DNA of 64,000 bases, taken from positions 2,480,001-2,544,000 of the forward strand of contig NZ_CP135435.1 in assembly GCF_032341175.1 (NCBI RefSeq), in the 5' to 3' direction. This DNA is from Bacillus sp. DTU_2020_1000418_1_SI_GHA_SEK_038 (GTDB lineage Bacteria > Bacillota > Bacilli > Bacillales > Cytobacillaceae). Below the pieces are notes generated by a model. That model worked only from the letters and a program-made list of their open reading frames with translations, did not search any database and was not told where the DNA came from. Made by a program: the position numbers and the translations under genes. Positions 1-9,440 of this stretch are shown piece by piece. Position 1 is the first letter of the stretch; every line of letters begins with the position of its first letter.

Positions 1-1575
1 ATAAATAACATTCGCCTTATAGCCTCTCAGTTTCATTTCATTAACAATCTCTTCTACTCGCTGATTAATGATTGCTCTTGCGATTAATTTTTGATAGACA
101 GATAGGGTTATTTTGTCCTGCGTACTGCCGCTCCAAAAACTTTTGTTCAAATCCATGAATTTTTTAAAAGCTTCCTCTCCGCCTTTACTTGAAACATGAG
201 GATAACCTTCCCATGACATGAAATATTTCGCAAGGTCTACTTTTGTCAGAACTTTATCTTTAGGATACTGCTTTTTGAAATCGCTTTGTTCTTTTCCGCG
301 CTTTCTTCGGCTAATATCAACCATATACTGGCCTCTTGCACGTTCAAAATACCATTTATTTTCGGGTTTTCTTCCGTCCAGTGGAGGAATCCAAATATTT
401 CGGGAGAATTTTTCTAAATCAGACATAAATCGGGTATTAGCGAGAAGATCTGATTTGTTTATTTTGTTTTGTGTATTTGCATATTGCGAAATTCTTGAGA
501 TCATATCATCTTCTAACAAATGCTGATCTTTTGTAACAAATTCATTAACCTGAAGAATAGTAAGCTTTGCCTGTACATAAACATCTTGCAGGCTAATTCC
601 TTCTTTATAAGCCTTATGAATAGAAGCAGTAGTTTGTCCTCCATTAACAATCTGCCAGCCGCTTAGACCCTTTACTCTATACTGGTTTACACCTTCATTT
701 ACCTTTTCAAAATCACCAGTTCGGGCTACAGTTGAAATACCGTTGTTATAGGCTACAAACATTTTACGCTGAAAAGGATCTTTTAGTGTATCTCTTATGC
801 CTTTATTTGTCCCTCCTCTGGCTTGGAGAAATGAACGGACGTTTCTTTCAACTAATTTCTGTCCCCATTCATCATATGCTTTTGCAAGGAGCTCTGCTGA
901 AATGTATCCGACATAACAGTCAAACTCCTTAACCCCATTCGCAGGATCTGGCACAAACATCATTTCAAAGGTCTCACCATAATCCTTTTCAAAGTCAATA
1001 TAGTCTGTTTCAATAGCCTGTTCGGAAGTAATGAGCTGCTTAACACGATCAATATCCCAAACTTGTACATTGACTGTTTCAATACCAGGGATTGACATCT
1101 CTACAGGCTTATTAGAAGAATAGTACATGTTTGTTACAACAAAGATGTTAATTTCGTTAAGATTAGCCATCTCATTCGAAATAATCTTAGCAAGATCAAA
1201 AGCTTCTAATGAATGATCAATAGTTTGCATAAGTGACTTTGCGTTTGTTACAAATCGCTTTGCCTTATTGGCAGTTTCGGTAACTGCAGTCATGTTAACT
1301 GTAAGAAGAACATCTTCATTTTGTTCAAAATTATAATCCGTTACGTACAGGTCTAATATATTATTCTCATCGTCAAAGGAATAAGCATTGACTGCAATAT
1401 TCTTTGCTGTATCTAAATATGGCGGGATCAAAATTTCAGGATCATCAGGCCTTTCCATGAATGAAAGCATTTTTTCAAGAAATGGAATCTGATAACTCCC
1501 TGTTTTAGCCGCCTTTTCTTCTAGCTCCTCCATAAAGTCGATGAGAAATTCTTTTCTTTGTCTAGTTTCTACCAT
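1..1575 (-). CDS. AIPR family protein (abortive-infection phage-resistance type), 3' end outside window
   Basis: The minus strand reads open from an ATG at 1575 to the window edge, giving 525 residues without a stop. I recognise the AIPR family (PF10592) from the central stretch that includes AYNNGIS, TGDFEKVNEG and GWQIVNGGQTTASIH, the family's most conserved block. The start has a GGAAGG ribosome binding site and lies 3 bp after the stop of the DUF4420 gene, so it is the fourth gene of the leftward operon. AIPR proteins are linked to phage defence; the biochemical role is not settled. The C-terminus is missing only because the window ends. Seen: open frame and motif block. Known: family link to abortive infection. 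Inferred: effector or accessory nuclease role in this operon. Confidence 0.85.
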   Translation of the reverse strand, partial: MVETRQRKEFLIDFMEELEEKAAKTGSYQIPFLEKMLSFMERPDDPEILIPPYLDTAKNIAVNAYSFDDENNILDLYVTDYNFEQNEDVLLTVNMTAVTETANKAKRFVTNAKSLMQTIDHSLEAFDLAKIISNEMANLNEINIFVVTNMYYSSNKPVEMSIPGIETVNVQVWDIDRVKQLITSEQAIETDYIDFEKDYGETFEMMFVPDPANGVKEFDCYVGYISAELLAKAYDEWGQKLVERNVRSFLQARGGTNKGIRDTLKDPFQRKMFVAYNNGISTVARTGDFEKVNEGVNQYRVKGLSGWQIVNGGQTTASIHKAYKEGISLQDVYVQAKLTILQVNEFVTKDQHLLEDDMISRISQYANTQNKINKSDLLANTRFMSDLEKFSRNIWIPPLDGRKPENKWYFERARGQYMVDISRRKRGKEQSDFKKQYPKDKVLTKVDLAKYFMSWEGYPHVSSKGGEEAFKKFMDLNKSFWSGSTQDKITLSVYQKLIARAIINQRVEEIVNEMKLRGYKANVIY

Positions 1576-1578
1576 TTT

Positions 1579-2601
1579 TTATCCTTCCACTCTAAACATT
1601 TGGTATATGGCTTCTTGATCTTTCTCAAACTCTGAACAATGGGTAAGATCGATATTATATGATACGTGAGAAATACCCTTAGGGAGATCTTCCTTTAGCA
1701 GTCTGGGAAAATCCTCCCCTGCTTCATAGACTTCTGTCTTTTCTACAAAGTATAAAGTATCAGCGTATTCTTCTTCTCTAAAACCAAGGTCCGTCATTAG
1801 ATCACAATATAAAAGTGCAATTCTTTCGGACCTTTCTGCTATTTTGTTCCGAACTTGGTTTGCGAGTTCCTGAAGAGACAATCCGTGTGTTCTGCTCTGC
1901 TCAAGAAAACATACATAAAGAAATATAGATGACACAGCTTCACTTAATTTAAGCTGATTTTCATTAGATATTTTAATTGTTTTAGATAATTTATCAATGA
2001 CAGTTTTAATCTCAAGACCGCATCGGCTTCCTTTAAAATCTATTCTACCTCTTGTAGGGCCTTCCCACTGCTCAATAATAAGCGGGGGCTGTCCAGGGTT
2101 TTTATCAAGCCATTCATTTATAAACCATAATTCTCCAAATAAACCTCTTTGCTGTTCTTCTGAAAGCCTTTTAAACCCGCCTCTCTGGAAAAAGATCCTC
2201 CATCTATCGAGAACTCTATAAACTATTGAGAAAAGAGATTCCTCATTTTCAGCAACCAAATGATCAGCAAGGTTCTGGAGAACAACGTCAAATATTTCTG
2301 AGCTTTGTTCATCCTCCTGCCTGATAACGAGAAAATAATGCTGTTTTAACAGAAAAACCTTCTCAAAGTACTCGATTTTCACAGACATCCCGCGCCATTT
2401 CGGCAAGGCTTTCTCCTGATCATCCGCCCATGGTTCGGTTCCCAAGTCAATGTAAAGCTGGCGATGATGATTGGCTGGATCAATTCCTGCAAGCATGACA
2501 GGATTCTCGTAAGTAAGGACATTAAGCTTATAGACCTCGGTCTCATCTTGGCTTTTAAGTTCCTTGATCATTTGTTCAAACTCTATTTTTAGGTTAATCA
2601 C
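1579..2601 (-). CDS. PD-(D/E)XK motif protein (DUF4420 family)
   Basis: 340 aa, starting at a GTG behind AAGGAGAG. The protein carries a restriction-endonuclease-like core near residues 185-205: GRIDFKGSRCGLEIKT, with the acidic residue of IDFKG and the E-x-K of LEIKT in PD-(D/E)XK spacing. This matches the DUF4420 family, found beside Z1 helicases and GHKL ATPases in defence operons. It lies 25 bp downstream of the Z1 gene and 3 bp upstream of the AIPR gene, so the four genes are probably co-transcribed. The likely role is nucleic acid cleavage. No methyltransferase is fused or adjacent, so self-protection is not explained by anything visible here. Confidence 0.82.
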   Translation of the reverse strand: MINLKIEFEQMIKELKSQDETEVYKLNVLTYENPVMLAGIDPANHHRQLYIDLGTEPWADDQEKALPKWRGMSVKIEYFEKVFLLKQHYFLVIRQEDEQSSEIFDVVLQNLADHLVAENEESLFSIVYRVLDRWRIFFQRGGFKRLSEEQQRGLFGELWFINEWLDKNPGQPPLIIEQWEGPTRGRIDFKGSRCGLEIKTVIDKLSKTIKISNENQLKLSEAVSSIFLYVCFLEQSRTHGLSLQELANQVRNKIAERSERIALLYCDLMTDLGFREEEYADTLYFVEKTEVYEAGEDFPRLLKEDLPKGISHVSYNIDLTHCSEFEKDQEAIYQMFRVEG

Positions 2602-2626
2602 AGCTACTCTCCTTAAATAAAGTTAT

Positions 2627-5272
2627 TTATACAGTTTTGTTAGTCTGGTAGACACTTGTATCATCAATCTCAGTGCCAGGGAAAGAAAATGCAATTCCAA
2701 TTGGCACTAATTTTGAAGAGAATTTCACATCCAGACTTTCGAAGATCTGCACTTGCGGATGTAAAGGATATATTAGGATTAATCCTTTTTCTTTGTCACG
2801 GATTCTGCGTTTATCTGTCCGGTCTTTTATTCCCTTTATCTCTTCAGGGTCAAGGTCAATGTATTCATGATTTGGAGATACAATTGCCCCAATGTCTCTT
2901 ATTTGATCCTTGCTTACCGGCGGTTTTACTTTCTTCCCGAGGGCAGCAGCAGATTTTAATTTTAGTTTTCCTATTTCAACAGGGTACTCTGCCAGACCTG
3001 AGCTGACAGAAGGATCTCCTTCAACCACTGCAACAGTCCACTTTATTAGCTCTCCACTTCTATTAGCACGGTCAATATAATCAGATATCAATACGGAATT
3101 CACGATAGTACTGTCAGCAGTCTGATACTCTGACAGGTACTCTTTAATCAGTTCTGCATTAACGTTATATGCTGTAAAGTAGTTCGTTTTTTTGTAAGTG
3201 TTTTTTTCTAATTGAAGCTTGTTCACTAACTTAACAGTGGCGTCCATATTTCCTTTTAGCACCTGTTCACTTGGGTCAAATAGCCGTGTTTGCTGCAATG
3301 TACCTGCATAAATCACATTCGAAGAAACAGCATTTCTCATCTTTAGCGGGCTTGTCAGCATCATTGTCGGATGACTCAGCATTTTGACTGCATATTCAGA
3401 GGGGGTTTTTCCCATCGCAGCAAGACGGTCAAACTCCTGGCGAAGCTGGATCATCGCGATAGCCAGATGCTCAAAATTTGAAGCAATCTCTTCTGACGTG
3501 TAAATACGGCAGAGATCCATATAGCCTTTTCTATAGCCAAACCAGCGGCCCATCTGCATGAGTGTGTCATACATTAGCGTGTTCCGGAAATAATAAGTGA
3601 TGCTTAATCCTTCAAGTGTAAGTCCCCTTGATAATTTGTCACCGCCGACAGCAATTACATTTAATCCATCTTCTTTATATTGATGATAGTCCAATGCATC
3701 CCGGCTGTTACCGTTTATTTCAAATACTTGAATACTCTCACTGCACTTTCTTAGTTCTTCATATACATCTTCCCAGCTGAAATCAGGATGATTCTCATTT
3801 GGCCATTCTCTGCTAGTCAGTCGAATGTCATTTTCATACAGTTCTTGCAGTTCAGCAATCACACTGCTTTCAGGATTATACTGCAGCTGTTTTGAGATGG
3901 CATCAAAAGTCCGCCAGACTTCATCTTTCACACTTGATTGAACATCCTTGAAGCGTGATGTATGAATAAGCATCGAATTATGTTTTTTCCTCTGCCCCCT
4001 CAAATTACGGATGGCAATGGCGAGTAAAAATGCCAAGATTGCCTCTCGCATTTGCGGCGGCACTTCTTCGAATTTATCAGCATCTGATTTCTTTTTTATA
4101 GTAGTAAATACATCAAGATCTTCCTGTCTCAGTGGACGAATTAGACTCGGCCTTGTGTCATCTGCATCTTCTTCTACATTAAAGTACTCTTCTGGCCCGC
4201 AATATTCCTTCGGTTTAGGAAGACCAACAAGGAAATCTTTCGGATAGAGGTCATCTCCCTCTTCCTCTGTTCTCCCCTCTTTGCTGATAAGAAGATTTGC
4301 AAAAGGTGTTGCTGTATAGCCAACAAAAGCCTTCCGGTTAAATACCTCAAGTATTTGCCTGATTAGCCGGTTAATCGTTTTTGGATCTTCGTTTTTGTCC
4401 GGATTAGAAGTATCAACAGATGCCTGGTCAGCCTCATCGTCTATAATAAGCATAGGAATATCCAGGTTATATAAATCACGGTGATTGATTAGCTGATCTC
4501 TAAGCGATTCCAATACTGTTTTGTTTTTCTTCACAACCATTAAAGTGGGAGCATTAAGATTGCTTGTGCCTCTTTGGCTGGACTTAATATCATTAATCTC
4601 TGTTGTCCAGGAGGAGATAATATGTTCTGCTGTATTTGAATATATTTGGGCAACTCCAATCGGGTTGCCATTCTTATCTGTCCGGTTGCCAATCACTTCT
4701 TCATTCAGCCTAATCTGTGTCTGGGCTCTTAAATCATTATGAATACCAGATAATACAATGACCAATTTATAGCCTAAGTCATAGGCTTTATTGATAAGTC
4801 CTGTGAAGTTGGCTGTTTTCCCTGACTGAACATACCCTAATGCAAGACCGCGATTATCAAATGGCTCCATGGATTTAGGGTTTCCAATTGAAGCCATAAT
4901 TTGATTTGTTGTCTCGTCAATTGCTTGAACAGCCTCCAATGGCCATTTTTTTACCTCAGAGAGATATCTGCGGTACCTTGTCCAGAAAAATCCGCTCGCT
5001 GCCATTTGAGGCTTAAACCAGCCTTTTTCTCTACCGTTCCGCATGACATAATCCTTTGGAACCTCTAAACCAATTTTGTATTTCTTAAACATTTCAAGTG
5101 ACCACTTTTGAAACATTACATCATCAATTGGGCCAAACCCAGATGCTAGCATCCTAGCTGATTCTAATGCTTTCTCTGCAGCTTCTTCCTGGGTTGAAGA
5201 TACGGTTTTAAGCAGATAATAATTATTTGTAAAGGTCTGTTCAAATAGACTCTTAGTATCAATAACTGACAA
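2627..5272 (-). CDS. Z1 domain superfamily II helicase-like ATPase
   Basis: 881 aa. Helicase motifs in order: a Walker A-like GYVQSGKTANF near residue 165, a Walker B-like IIDDEADQAS near 277, YTATPFANL near 320, SRGLTLEGLS near 560 and MGRWFGYRKGY near 582. This order is that of the Z1 family (PF10593), a superfamily II group found in restriction and defence operons. The start is a TTG at 5272 with GGAGG nine bases upstream. The frame overlaps the end of the upstream ATPase gene by 14 bp, indicating translational coupling. Probable role: ATP-driven DNA translocation or remodelling that serves the DUF4420 nuclease. Function is inferred from family and context. Confidence 0.9.
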   Translation of the reverse strand: MSVIDTKSLFEQTFTNNYYLLKTVSSTQEEAAEKALESARMLASGFGPIDDVMFQKWSLEMFKKYKIGLEVPKDYVMRNGREKGWFKPQMAASGFFWTRYRRYLSEVKKWPLEAVQAIDETTNQIMASIGNPKSMEPFDNRGLALGYVQSGKTANFTGLINKAYDLGYKLVIVLSGIHNDLRAQTQIRLNEEVIGNRTDKNGNPIGVAQIYSNTAEHIISSWTTEINDIKSSQRGTSNLNAPTLMVVKKNKTVLESLRDQLINHRDLYNLDIPMLIIDDEADQASVDTSNPDKNEDPKTINRLIRQILEVFNRKAFVGYTATPFANLLISKEGRTEEEGDDLYPKDFLVGLPKPKEYCGPEEYFNVEEDADDTRPSLIRPLRQEDLDVFTTIKKKSDADKFEEVPPQMREAILAFLLAIAIRNLRGQRKKHNSMLIHTSRFKDVQSSVKDEVWRTFDAISKQLQYNPESSVIAELQELYENDIRLTSREWPNENHPDFSWEDVYEELRKCSESIQVFEINGNSRDALDYHQYKEDGLNVIAVGGDKLSRGLTLEGLSITYYFRNTLMYDTLMQMGRWFGYRKGYMDLCRIYTSEEIASNFEHLAIAMIQLRQEFDRLAAMGKTPSEYAVKMLSHPTMMLTSPLKMRNAVSSNVIYAGTLQQTRLFDPSEQVLKGNMDATVKLVNKLQLEKNTYKKTNYFTAYNVNAELIKEYLSEYQTADSTIVNSVLISDYIDRANRSGELIKWTVAVVEGDPSVSSGLAEYPVEIGKLKLKSAAALGKKVKPPVSKDQIRDIGAIVSPNHEYIDLDPEEIKGIKDRTDKRRIRDKEKGLILIYPLHPQVQIFESLDVKFSSKLVPIGIAFSFPGTEIDDTSVYQTNKTV

Positions 5273-6737
5273 ACAAATTCGCCTCCGTTATTATTGCTTT
5301 TAATGTTGCCCGGTTCAATCCATCAAATGCAGGCTGTGATAACAAAATATTCAGAAGCTGCTCTTCTTTGTCTGCTACATTTAGCTTAAGCATGGAAGAA
5401 GCAAACTGGATAACCAGCTCTCTCTGACTATCCTGCACCTCCTGAACCTGTTCTTCGGGAACCTTTGGAGAGTCTATAATATTGCTTGGCGAGCCAAGCT
5501 GCACAAATTTAAGATACAAGTTTAATAGCTTTGCATTTTCGTCATCCAAGTTCTTAAGGAGCTCTGATAGAATTGGATGATTCCTATTTAGAATAAATTG
5601 CGGGCCATCTTCGCTCCCAGACTGTTCCCAAGTATTCAGACTTCCTTTAAATGTCTGGTTAGTGGAACCTGTCTGAGTCCGGAAATAGAATATATCCTTT
5701 GACACTTTCCTTGCAATAGCAGAAATGGTCTCCAGCCTTTTTTTCGCATCCTCTGGTAAGTTTATGCCTGATTTCTTTATATCTACCTGCCAATCAGAAT
5801 CAGCCGTATTAGGCAGATCAATACGCACTCTTGCAAGCTGGGACGCTGCATCCTTTGGGAACATCCCCATCCAATCTCCAAAGTAAAGCAGCCGGTTCTC
5901 CCGGTATATATACAGACCCTGATGATCACGCCAGCCCTTATATCCGCCTGCCTTTTTGTACTCCGGCTCACTTAAGTTAGAAGCGTGAGGCAGGATAATA
6001 TACTGGACTCTAATTCTATTATCATTAATTCGAAGCATCTGTGTTTCGCCTTCAATTGTATTTTGATGGTATCGCATAAACGGATCCCATGGCTCAATCA
6101 CTTTTCCGTTAATAAACATTTTTACTTCGTTTTTTTCAAGAATAGAGTGGAAGACAAATTCCAAGTGTCTATTTATTCGGGAGACTTTATTATAATAGCT
6201 GGTTTCTTTTAATTTTCGCTTGCCTCCATATCCCATGAATCGGTCAAGCTTATCAATGCAGACAATTGTGCCGCTTTCCTCTAGTATTTCTCCCATTTTC
6301 ACTTTAACTTCTTCAGGAATATTTGTGAAAAGCTGCCATTCATTACATTCAGATACGTGGTCTAAATCCCAGCATCTCTCAAAATATTGGCCTTCTCTTT
6401 TTGTAAGCACACTTAATCGCTTTCCCATAGAGAAGGATGCTGTCTTCAGACCCATTCCAAATCTTCCGAGTTCATTGGTGCTTCTTTTTGCACGCGGATC
6501 CTTAGAACCAATATTCATAGCAGTTTGAAGCATATCTTCATCCATTCCAAATCCGTTATCAATAATTCTGATCATTCCATCTGAATCGCCATAATCAAAA
6601 TTAATATTAACTAAAGATGCTTTTGCATCCAGACAATTATCTATCAAATCAGAAATAGCAGTGCTAGCATTATAGCCAATAGATCGAAGTGCCTGAATTA
6701 CTGGTGCTGCTGACGGCTGCGTCAATACAGTATTCAT
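5259..6737 (-). CDS. GHKL-type ATPase (MORC/MutL/Hsp90-like fold)
   Basis: 492 aa from the ATG at 6737; an upstream TTG at 6755 is in frame, but the GGAG site fits the ATG. The N-terminal GHKL ATP-binding fold is clear: N-box SDLIDNCLDAKA near residue 30, G1 box IDNGFGMD near 58, and ELGRFGMGLKTASF near 90. The rest resembles the second domain of MutL/MORC-like proteins. It is the first gene of the leftward operon with Z1, DUF4420 and AIPR genes. Iyer, Abhiman and Aravind (2008) described this kind of ATPase in restriction-modification neighbourhoods as the relatives of eukaryotic MORC proteins. An ATP-gated DNA clamp role is inference. Confidence 0.88.
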   Translation of the reverse strand: MNTVLTQPSAAPVIQALRSIGYNASTAISDLIDNCLDAKASLVNINFDYGDSDGMIRIIDNGFGMDEDMLQTAMNIGSKDPRAKRSTNELGRFGMGLKTASFSMGKRLSVLTKREGQYFERCWDLDHVSECNEWQLFTNIPEEVKVKMGEILEESGTIVCIDKLDRFMGYGGKRKLKETSYYNKVSRINRHLEFVFHSILEKNEVKMFINGKVIEPWDPFMRYHQNTIEGETQMLRINDNRIRVQYIILPHASNLSEPEYKKAGGYKGWRDHQGLYIYRENRLLYFGDWMGMFPKDAASQLARVRIDLPNTADSDWQVDIKKSGINLPEDAKKRLETISAIARKVSKDIFYFRTQTGSTNQTFKGSLNTWEQSGSEDGPQFILNRNHPILSELLKNLDDENAKLLNLYLKFVQLGSPSNIIDSPKVPEEQVQEVQDSQRELVIQFASSMLKLNVADKEEQLLNILLSQPAFDGLNRATLKAIITEANLFVSY

Positions 6738-8054: not shown

Positions 8055-9440
8055 TTATCTATCACACCCTATTCCATCTCCATCACGGTCAAGGTGTTTC
8101 GCGTACCCTGGTTCTCCTTTATATATTGGTGCAGCGCCAGCAGCACGAGCTTCACTACAGTTTTTATAATTTACAAAAACCTGTTTTTGTTCTTGGGCTA
8201 AACGATCAGCTTCTTCTTGTTTGAGCTTTTCTTCGGCTAAGCGAGCGGCTTCTTCTTGTTTACGCTGTTCCTCTGCTAAACGGGCAGCTTCTTCTTGTTT
8301 GCGCTGTTCCTCCGCTAAGCGAGCGGCGGCTTCTTGCTTACGCTGTTCCTCTGCTATACGATTAGCTTCTTCTTGTTTACGCTTCTCCTCTGATAGCCGA
8401 GCAGCTTCATTTGACTTATCTGTATTAGAATCAGATACTTCAGTAGCTGGTTTAACATTATCAGATTCTTTAGATTCTTCACCAAAAGCTATTGCAACAA
8501 TCATAAGCAATGTAAACAAATAAACAAGTGACGCAATTGTTTTTTTCCACCACTTTCCGCTTCGAAAACCAAGTATTTTTTGATGCCATTTTCTTGTTTT
8601 AATTTTGAAAGGGATATTAGAAGTAGATAATATATCAGTAAACTTTTTACCAGAATTATTCATTACTAATTTGCCTTCATTATTACTAATTACAGTTTTA
8701 ATTGCATAATGATCAATAACTGTATTTGAAAAGAAAACTAAAGGCCAAATGTGAATCTGTTGAGCTTTTCGTTCCTTATCATTATATTCATATAGTAGTA
8801 CACCATTATCTATTACAATAAAGTTACCCTTTTTCTGTTTTTCGTGGTAGTAACCCTCAACAATGAGTACAGCATATTTATGTTTTTCACGCAGAAGTCT
8901 CTCGCCATTTTTTGTTTGTCCTAGATCATCTCGTTTCATTAGAAACGTTGTAATTTTGATTCCGCGAGTTCGTAAATCTGCAAGTCTTTCAGAATGTAAG
9001 AAATAGTCAAAGTCATGAGTAACCGTTGTATGTATCTCATGAGATTGATTAACAATCATGTGTTCAAGAGTTTCAATAAATTCTTGACTATCATCATTTT
9101 TCTTAATATCATCAAATATACGCTTAGATCGCCCAATTTTAAGAGTTATCTGCCACTCATGTTTGTCCTTACCATCATTTCGAACATCAATATCACTAAT
9201 TTGTGAGTATTTATATACCATGTGTTCACGTTTAGACATGAAAATGATTGAATCTGATGTCAATATTAATACTCCGTCTAGTTCACGTCCGCTTTTTTTA
9301 TCACATTCTGCCTCAATAACTTTTAGAACTTTTTCAGTAGAAGATATTATTGTATTTTGTGCTTGTACTAATAATCTTTCATACTTTGAAACTAACGCTT
9401 TCTGACCAATTGTAGGTCGTTTACCTATCCACTTCTCCAT
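8055..9440 (-). CDS. Membrane protein with PH-like N-terminus, tandem charged repeats and C-terminal Excalibur domain
   Basis: 461 aa, ATG behind GGAGGC. Residues about 20-135 resemble a bacterial PH-like domain (bPH type; moderate confidence). A second uncharacterised globular region follows to about 290. One transmembrane segment lies near 302-320 (IASLVYLFTLLMIVAIAFG). Five tandem 13-residue units of the type EEQRKQEEAARLA follow (about 351-415), predicted to be a long charged helix. The C-terminus is an Excalibur-type calcium-binding module: CSEARAAGAAPIY, then DRDGDGIGCDR. With the PH-like part likely cytoplasmic, the helix would span the wall and present the Excalibur module outside. 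It stands alone, so function is unknown. Confidence 0.75.
   Translation of the reverse strand: MEKWIGKRPTIGQKALVSKYERLLVQAQNTIISSTEKVLKVIEAECDKKSGRELDGVLILTSDSIIFMSKREHMVYKYSQISDIDVRNDGKDKHEWQITLKIGRSKRIFDDIKKNDDSQEFIETLEHMIVNQSHEIHTTVTHDFDYFLHSERLADLRTRGIKITTFLMKRDDLGQTKNGERLLREKHKYAVLIVEGYYHEKQKKGNFIVIDNGVLLYEYNDKERKAQQIHIWPLVFFSNTVIDHYAIKTVISNNEGKLVMNNSGKKFTDILSTSNIPFKIKTRKWHQKILGFRSGKWWKKTIASLVYLFTLLMIVAIAFGEESKESDNVKPATEVSDSNTDKSNEAARLSEEKRKQEEANRIAEEQRKQEAAARLAEEQRKQEEAARLAEEQRKQEEAARLAEEKLKQEEADRLAQEQKQVFVNYKNCSEARAAGAAPIYKGEPGYAKHLDRDGDGIGCDR
8200..8400 (-). repeat. Five tandem 39-bp coding repeats
   Basis: Each 39-bp unit encodes one EEQRKQEEAARLA-type 13-mer of the 461-aa membrane protein. 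Units differ at a few positions (EEKRKQEEANRIA, EEQRKQEAAARLA, EEKLKQEEADRLA). Such arrays vary in copy number by slippage or recombination, so alleles may differ in stalk length between strains. Confidence 0.85.

Follow-up and report, generated by a model that had tools for sequence, protein, structure and literature searches.

The 64,000-nucleotide stretch of Bacillus sp. DTU_2020_1000418_1_SI_GHA_SEK_038 analysed here (the window; contig NZ_CP135435.1, positions 2,480,001 to 2,544,000; source genome G000) begins with an operon encoding a MORC-like ATPase and MzaC-like, DUF4420 and AIPR proteins (set 1). A second complete four-gene set (set 2) lies to its left, just outside the window and beyond what the original prediction could see, and is the most unusual part of the locus. 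The engine set is doubled behind one methyltransferase, with set 2 forming a mobile block of its own. Set 2 is an anciently different version of the set 1 machine, and two engines of different deep lineages share one locus and one methyltransferase. Across loci, unrelated methyltransferases adjoin nearly identical cutting engines. From this arrangement it seems that a single DNA mark may be enough for two defence machines that can stand in for each other.

The four-gene operon of the original prediction, made from the letters alone, is real. The interpretation given there is supported in part: the restriction-type reading and the domain calls hold, in agreement with PADLOC, which assigns the set 1 genes to MzaB, C, D and E. 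The MORC-like protein contains DxGxGM and GRFGxGLKxA motifs, and the PDB chains that it matched are MORC2, MORC3, MORC4 and MutL. Set 1 genuinely belongs to a class of bacterial anti-virus systems that has been described before.

In one set 2 locus (G534) the DUF4420 gene is broken into two frames, and this copy may therefore be inactive. A resolvase-like protein of about 205 residues directly precedes set 2 in G403 and G528 (the two are 54% identical), and was found in none of the other seven set 2 loci examined. It is possibly a regulator or a mobility gene.

Most restriction-modification (R-M) systems have a cutting part that shares its recognition specificity with the methyltransferase and evolves together with it. 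MORC ATPases are known mostly from eukaryotic chromatin. If our reading is correct, information on the target must reach the engine via the methyltransferase, a separate reader protein, or the mark itself, and the answer would help to relate MORC ATPases to bacterial DNA methylation.

Cytosine methyltransferases at related loci

Reading leftward from the window found a cytosine-5 methyltransferase and vsr immediately beyond its edge, which is one of the two possibilities that the original prediction had raised. Three further cytosine methyltransferase matches occur elsewhere in the genome. Related loci were surveyed using a profile derived from 21 members of the family, the survey being headed by METHYLTRANSFERASES. 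Loci without set 2 were considered evaluable if they had at least 2.5 kb on both sides (47 of 74, with flanks of up to 10 kb). All 47, mostly from other phyla, carry a cytosine methyltransferase within the flanks, and 36 carry vsr. The other suggestion, that self/non-self choice may work without a methyltransferase, is not supported.

Within the phylum of the source genome, 43 of 50 stretches with all four genes include a cytosine methyltransferase. Of the other seven, four have one on a neighbouring stretch of the same genome, two are short pieces (L014 and L034), and in the last (G575, L026) it is 13 kb away. For set 2, the enzyme is on the retrieved DNA at 10 of 11 loci, although in G403 it is split into two frames; the eleventh locus (G528) lies on a contig of only 12.2 kb, and that genome has a cytosine methyltransferase on another contig.

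The local enzyme is the genome's only cytosine methyltransferase match in G534, G500, G421, G403 and G491, and in Pontibacillus it is the only one apart from a 57-residue fragment. Aquibacillus has three, every one of them local. G534 and G500, whose draft assemblies comprise some 90 and 150 contigs, therefore each have two engines and one cytosine methyltransferase. These genomes, together with the counts given above, argue against two independent systems that are just neighbours in one defence island, in which set 1 would have its own methyltransferase and vsr while set 2 would be an unrelated guest whose self-recognition is independent of the neighbouring enzyme. We consider this rather unlikely.

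In G442, G421, G528 and G575, B3-like (RE_NgoFVII_C) proteins are encoded close to the short methyltransferases; they may read the sequence or may simply be ordinary restriction enzymes.

The probable nuclease and the mode of action

The original prediction proposed two nuclease or effector proteins. This is supported for DUF4420, where the E/D...D...ExK site (E157, D188, E197 and K199) is invariant in 40 of 40 sequences and has equivalents in set 2. It is uncertain for AIPR: the best fold matches to the model of its N-domain are restriction and repair nucleases, but these are weak matches that exclude nothing, and this domain has no conserved catalytic set. For the middle domain of AIPR, compared with ParB-type chains, a ParB/Srx-like fold is a candidate. 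It is more likely that DUF4420, rather than AIPR, is the nuclease.

These results bear on abortive infection. In this reading the sets would respond to infection, or to the mark being lost, by killing the cell through AIPR as a toxin, and would not act by cutting phage DNA. The name of AIPR (abortive infection phage resistance) speaks for it. The location of the conserved nuclease site in DUF4420 speaks against it, as do the nuclease-like AIPR matches, within the limits just given, and the presence of the same gene set in DNA-processing R-M neighbourhoods in the available text of PMC2292703. On balance we find it improbable. A modification-dependent (type IV-like) cutter that attacks modified phage DNA is much harder to accept, given that the neighbouring enzyme would put cytosine methylation on the host itself; the fold matches are uninformative on modification specificity. 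The preferred reading, which we consider likely, remains two DNA-cutting engines that share one methyltransferase.

Coordinates and neighbouring genes

Table 1. Positions of set 1 genes (window numbering) and of features at this and related loci (L numbers, retrieved stretches).
Feature	Position	Strand	Match
First gene of set 1, GHKL ATPase (MORC-like, MzaB-like)	5259..6737	-	HATPase_c_3 5e-30; PADLOC MzaB 1e-73
Set 1 second gene	2627..5272	-	PADLOC MzaC
DUF4420, probable PD-(D/E)XK nuclease (MzaD-like), set 1	1579..2601	-	
AIPR, set 1 fourth gene	1..1575	-	PADLOC MzaE
GRAM-like protein, adjoining operon	window 8055-9440		
Type IV CBASS	L003:1-2534		
1207-residue helicase	L003:2842-7140		AAA_11/AAA_12; MTES_1575
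Split DUF4420 gene, set 2 of G534	L005:4837-5834		
Resolvase-like proteins	L013:6387-7004, L014:9183-9803		
B3-like proteins	L021:4489-5640, L010:1827-3092, L146:4789-6060, L145:16129-17298		RE_NgoFVII_C

Left of the window there is a type IV cyclic-oligonucleotide-based antiphage signalling system (CBASS), which comprises a CD-NTase, a SLATT effector with two transmembrane segments, and genes resembling TGT and QueC. The CD-NTase has a glycine-rich N-terminus and is cut by the end of the stretch. QueC-family deazaguanylation in type IV CBASS has already been published, as stated in the available part of the source. The helicase, whose nuclease domain is C-terminal, lies between set 2 and CBASS, and is preceded by a 211-residue protein with no Pfam or PADLOC match. 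On the other side of set 1, the GRAM-like protein (a weak match) has a C-terminal Excalibur domain, repetitive stretches rich in glutamate, alanine and lysine, and no PADLOC match.

Comparison with known systems

The locus closely resembles the third type of MORC/superfamily-II helicase R-M neighbourhood (Iyer, Abhiman, Aravind 2008, PMC2292703), with which, according to the available text, it shares the MORC ATPase, a restriction endonuclease-fold protein, the cytosine methylase, Vsr, and a helicase whose C-terminal domain has the DThhQXuRhFG motif. AIPR is named there in a figure legend. The composite of two engines and one methyltransferase present here is not described in that text.

Homologues of MzaB, C, D and E of MzaABCDE are present in the same order, as judged by the PADLOC models, but the methyltransferase and vsr are a difference. 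The NCBIfam equivalog cut-offs are not reached by set 1 (bits against cut-off: MzaB 291/850, MzaC 594/1500, MzaD 91/420, MzaE 333/1050), and set 2 is also far below them (294, 440, 124 and 275 bits). MzaA is a sigma factor, according to the part of PMC9523054 available; none was found among the locus proteins scanned, on the window side up to 9440, and no open reading frame of at least 80 codons lies between the MORC gene and window position 8055.

MORC, DUF4420 and AIPR, present here, are not seen in the available text on the CglI and NgoAVII R-M systems (PMC5737866, PMC4267653). None of 15 proteins of the source locus has a Pfam match to RE_NgoFVII_C (the NgoFVII-type B3-like protein), unlike the four genomes above, where such proteins lie near the engines or their methyltransferases.

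The gene set itself is already known, from the available text of Iyer 2008 (PMC2292703), Mza (Gao 2020) and Miller 2022 (PMC9523054). Neither the doubling of the set nor the replacement of one methyltransferase by another beneath near-identical engines was found in the literature searched.
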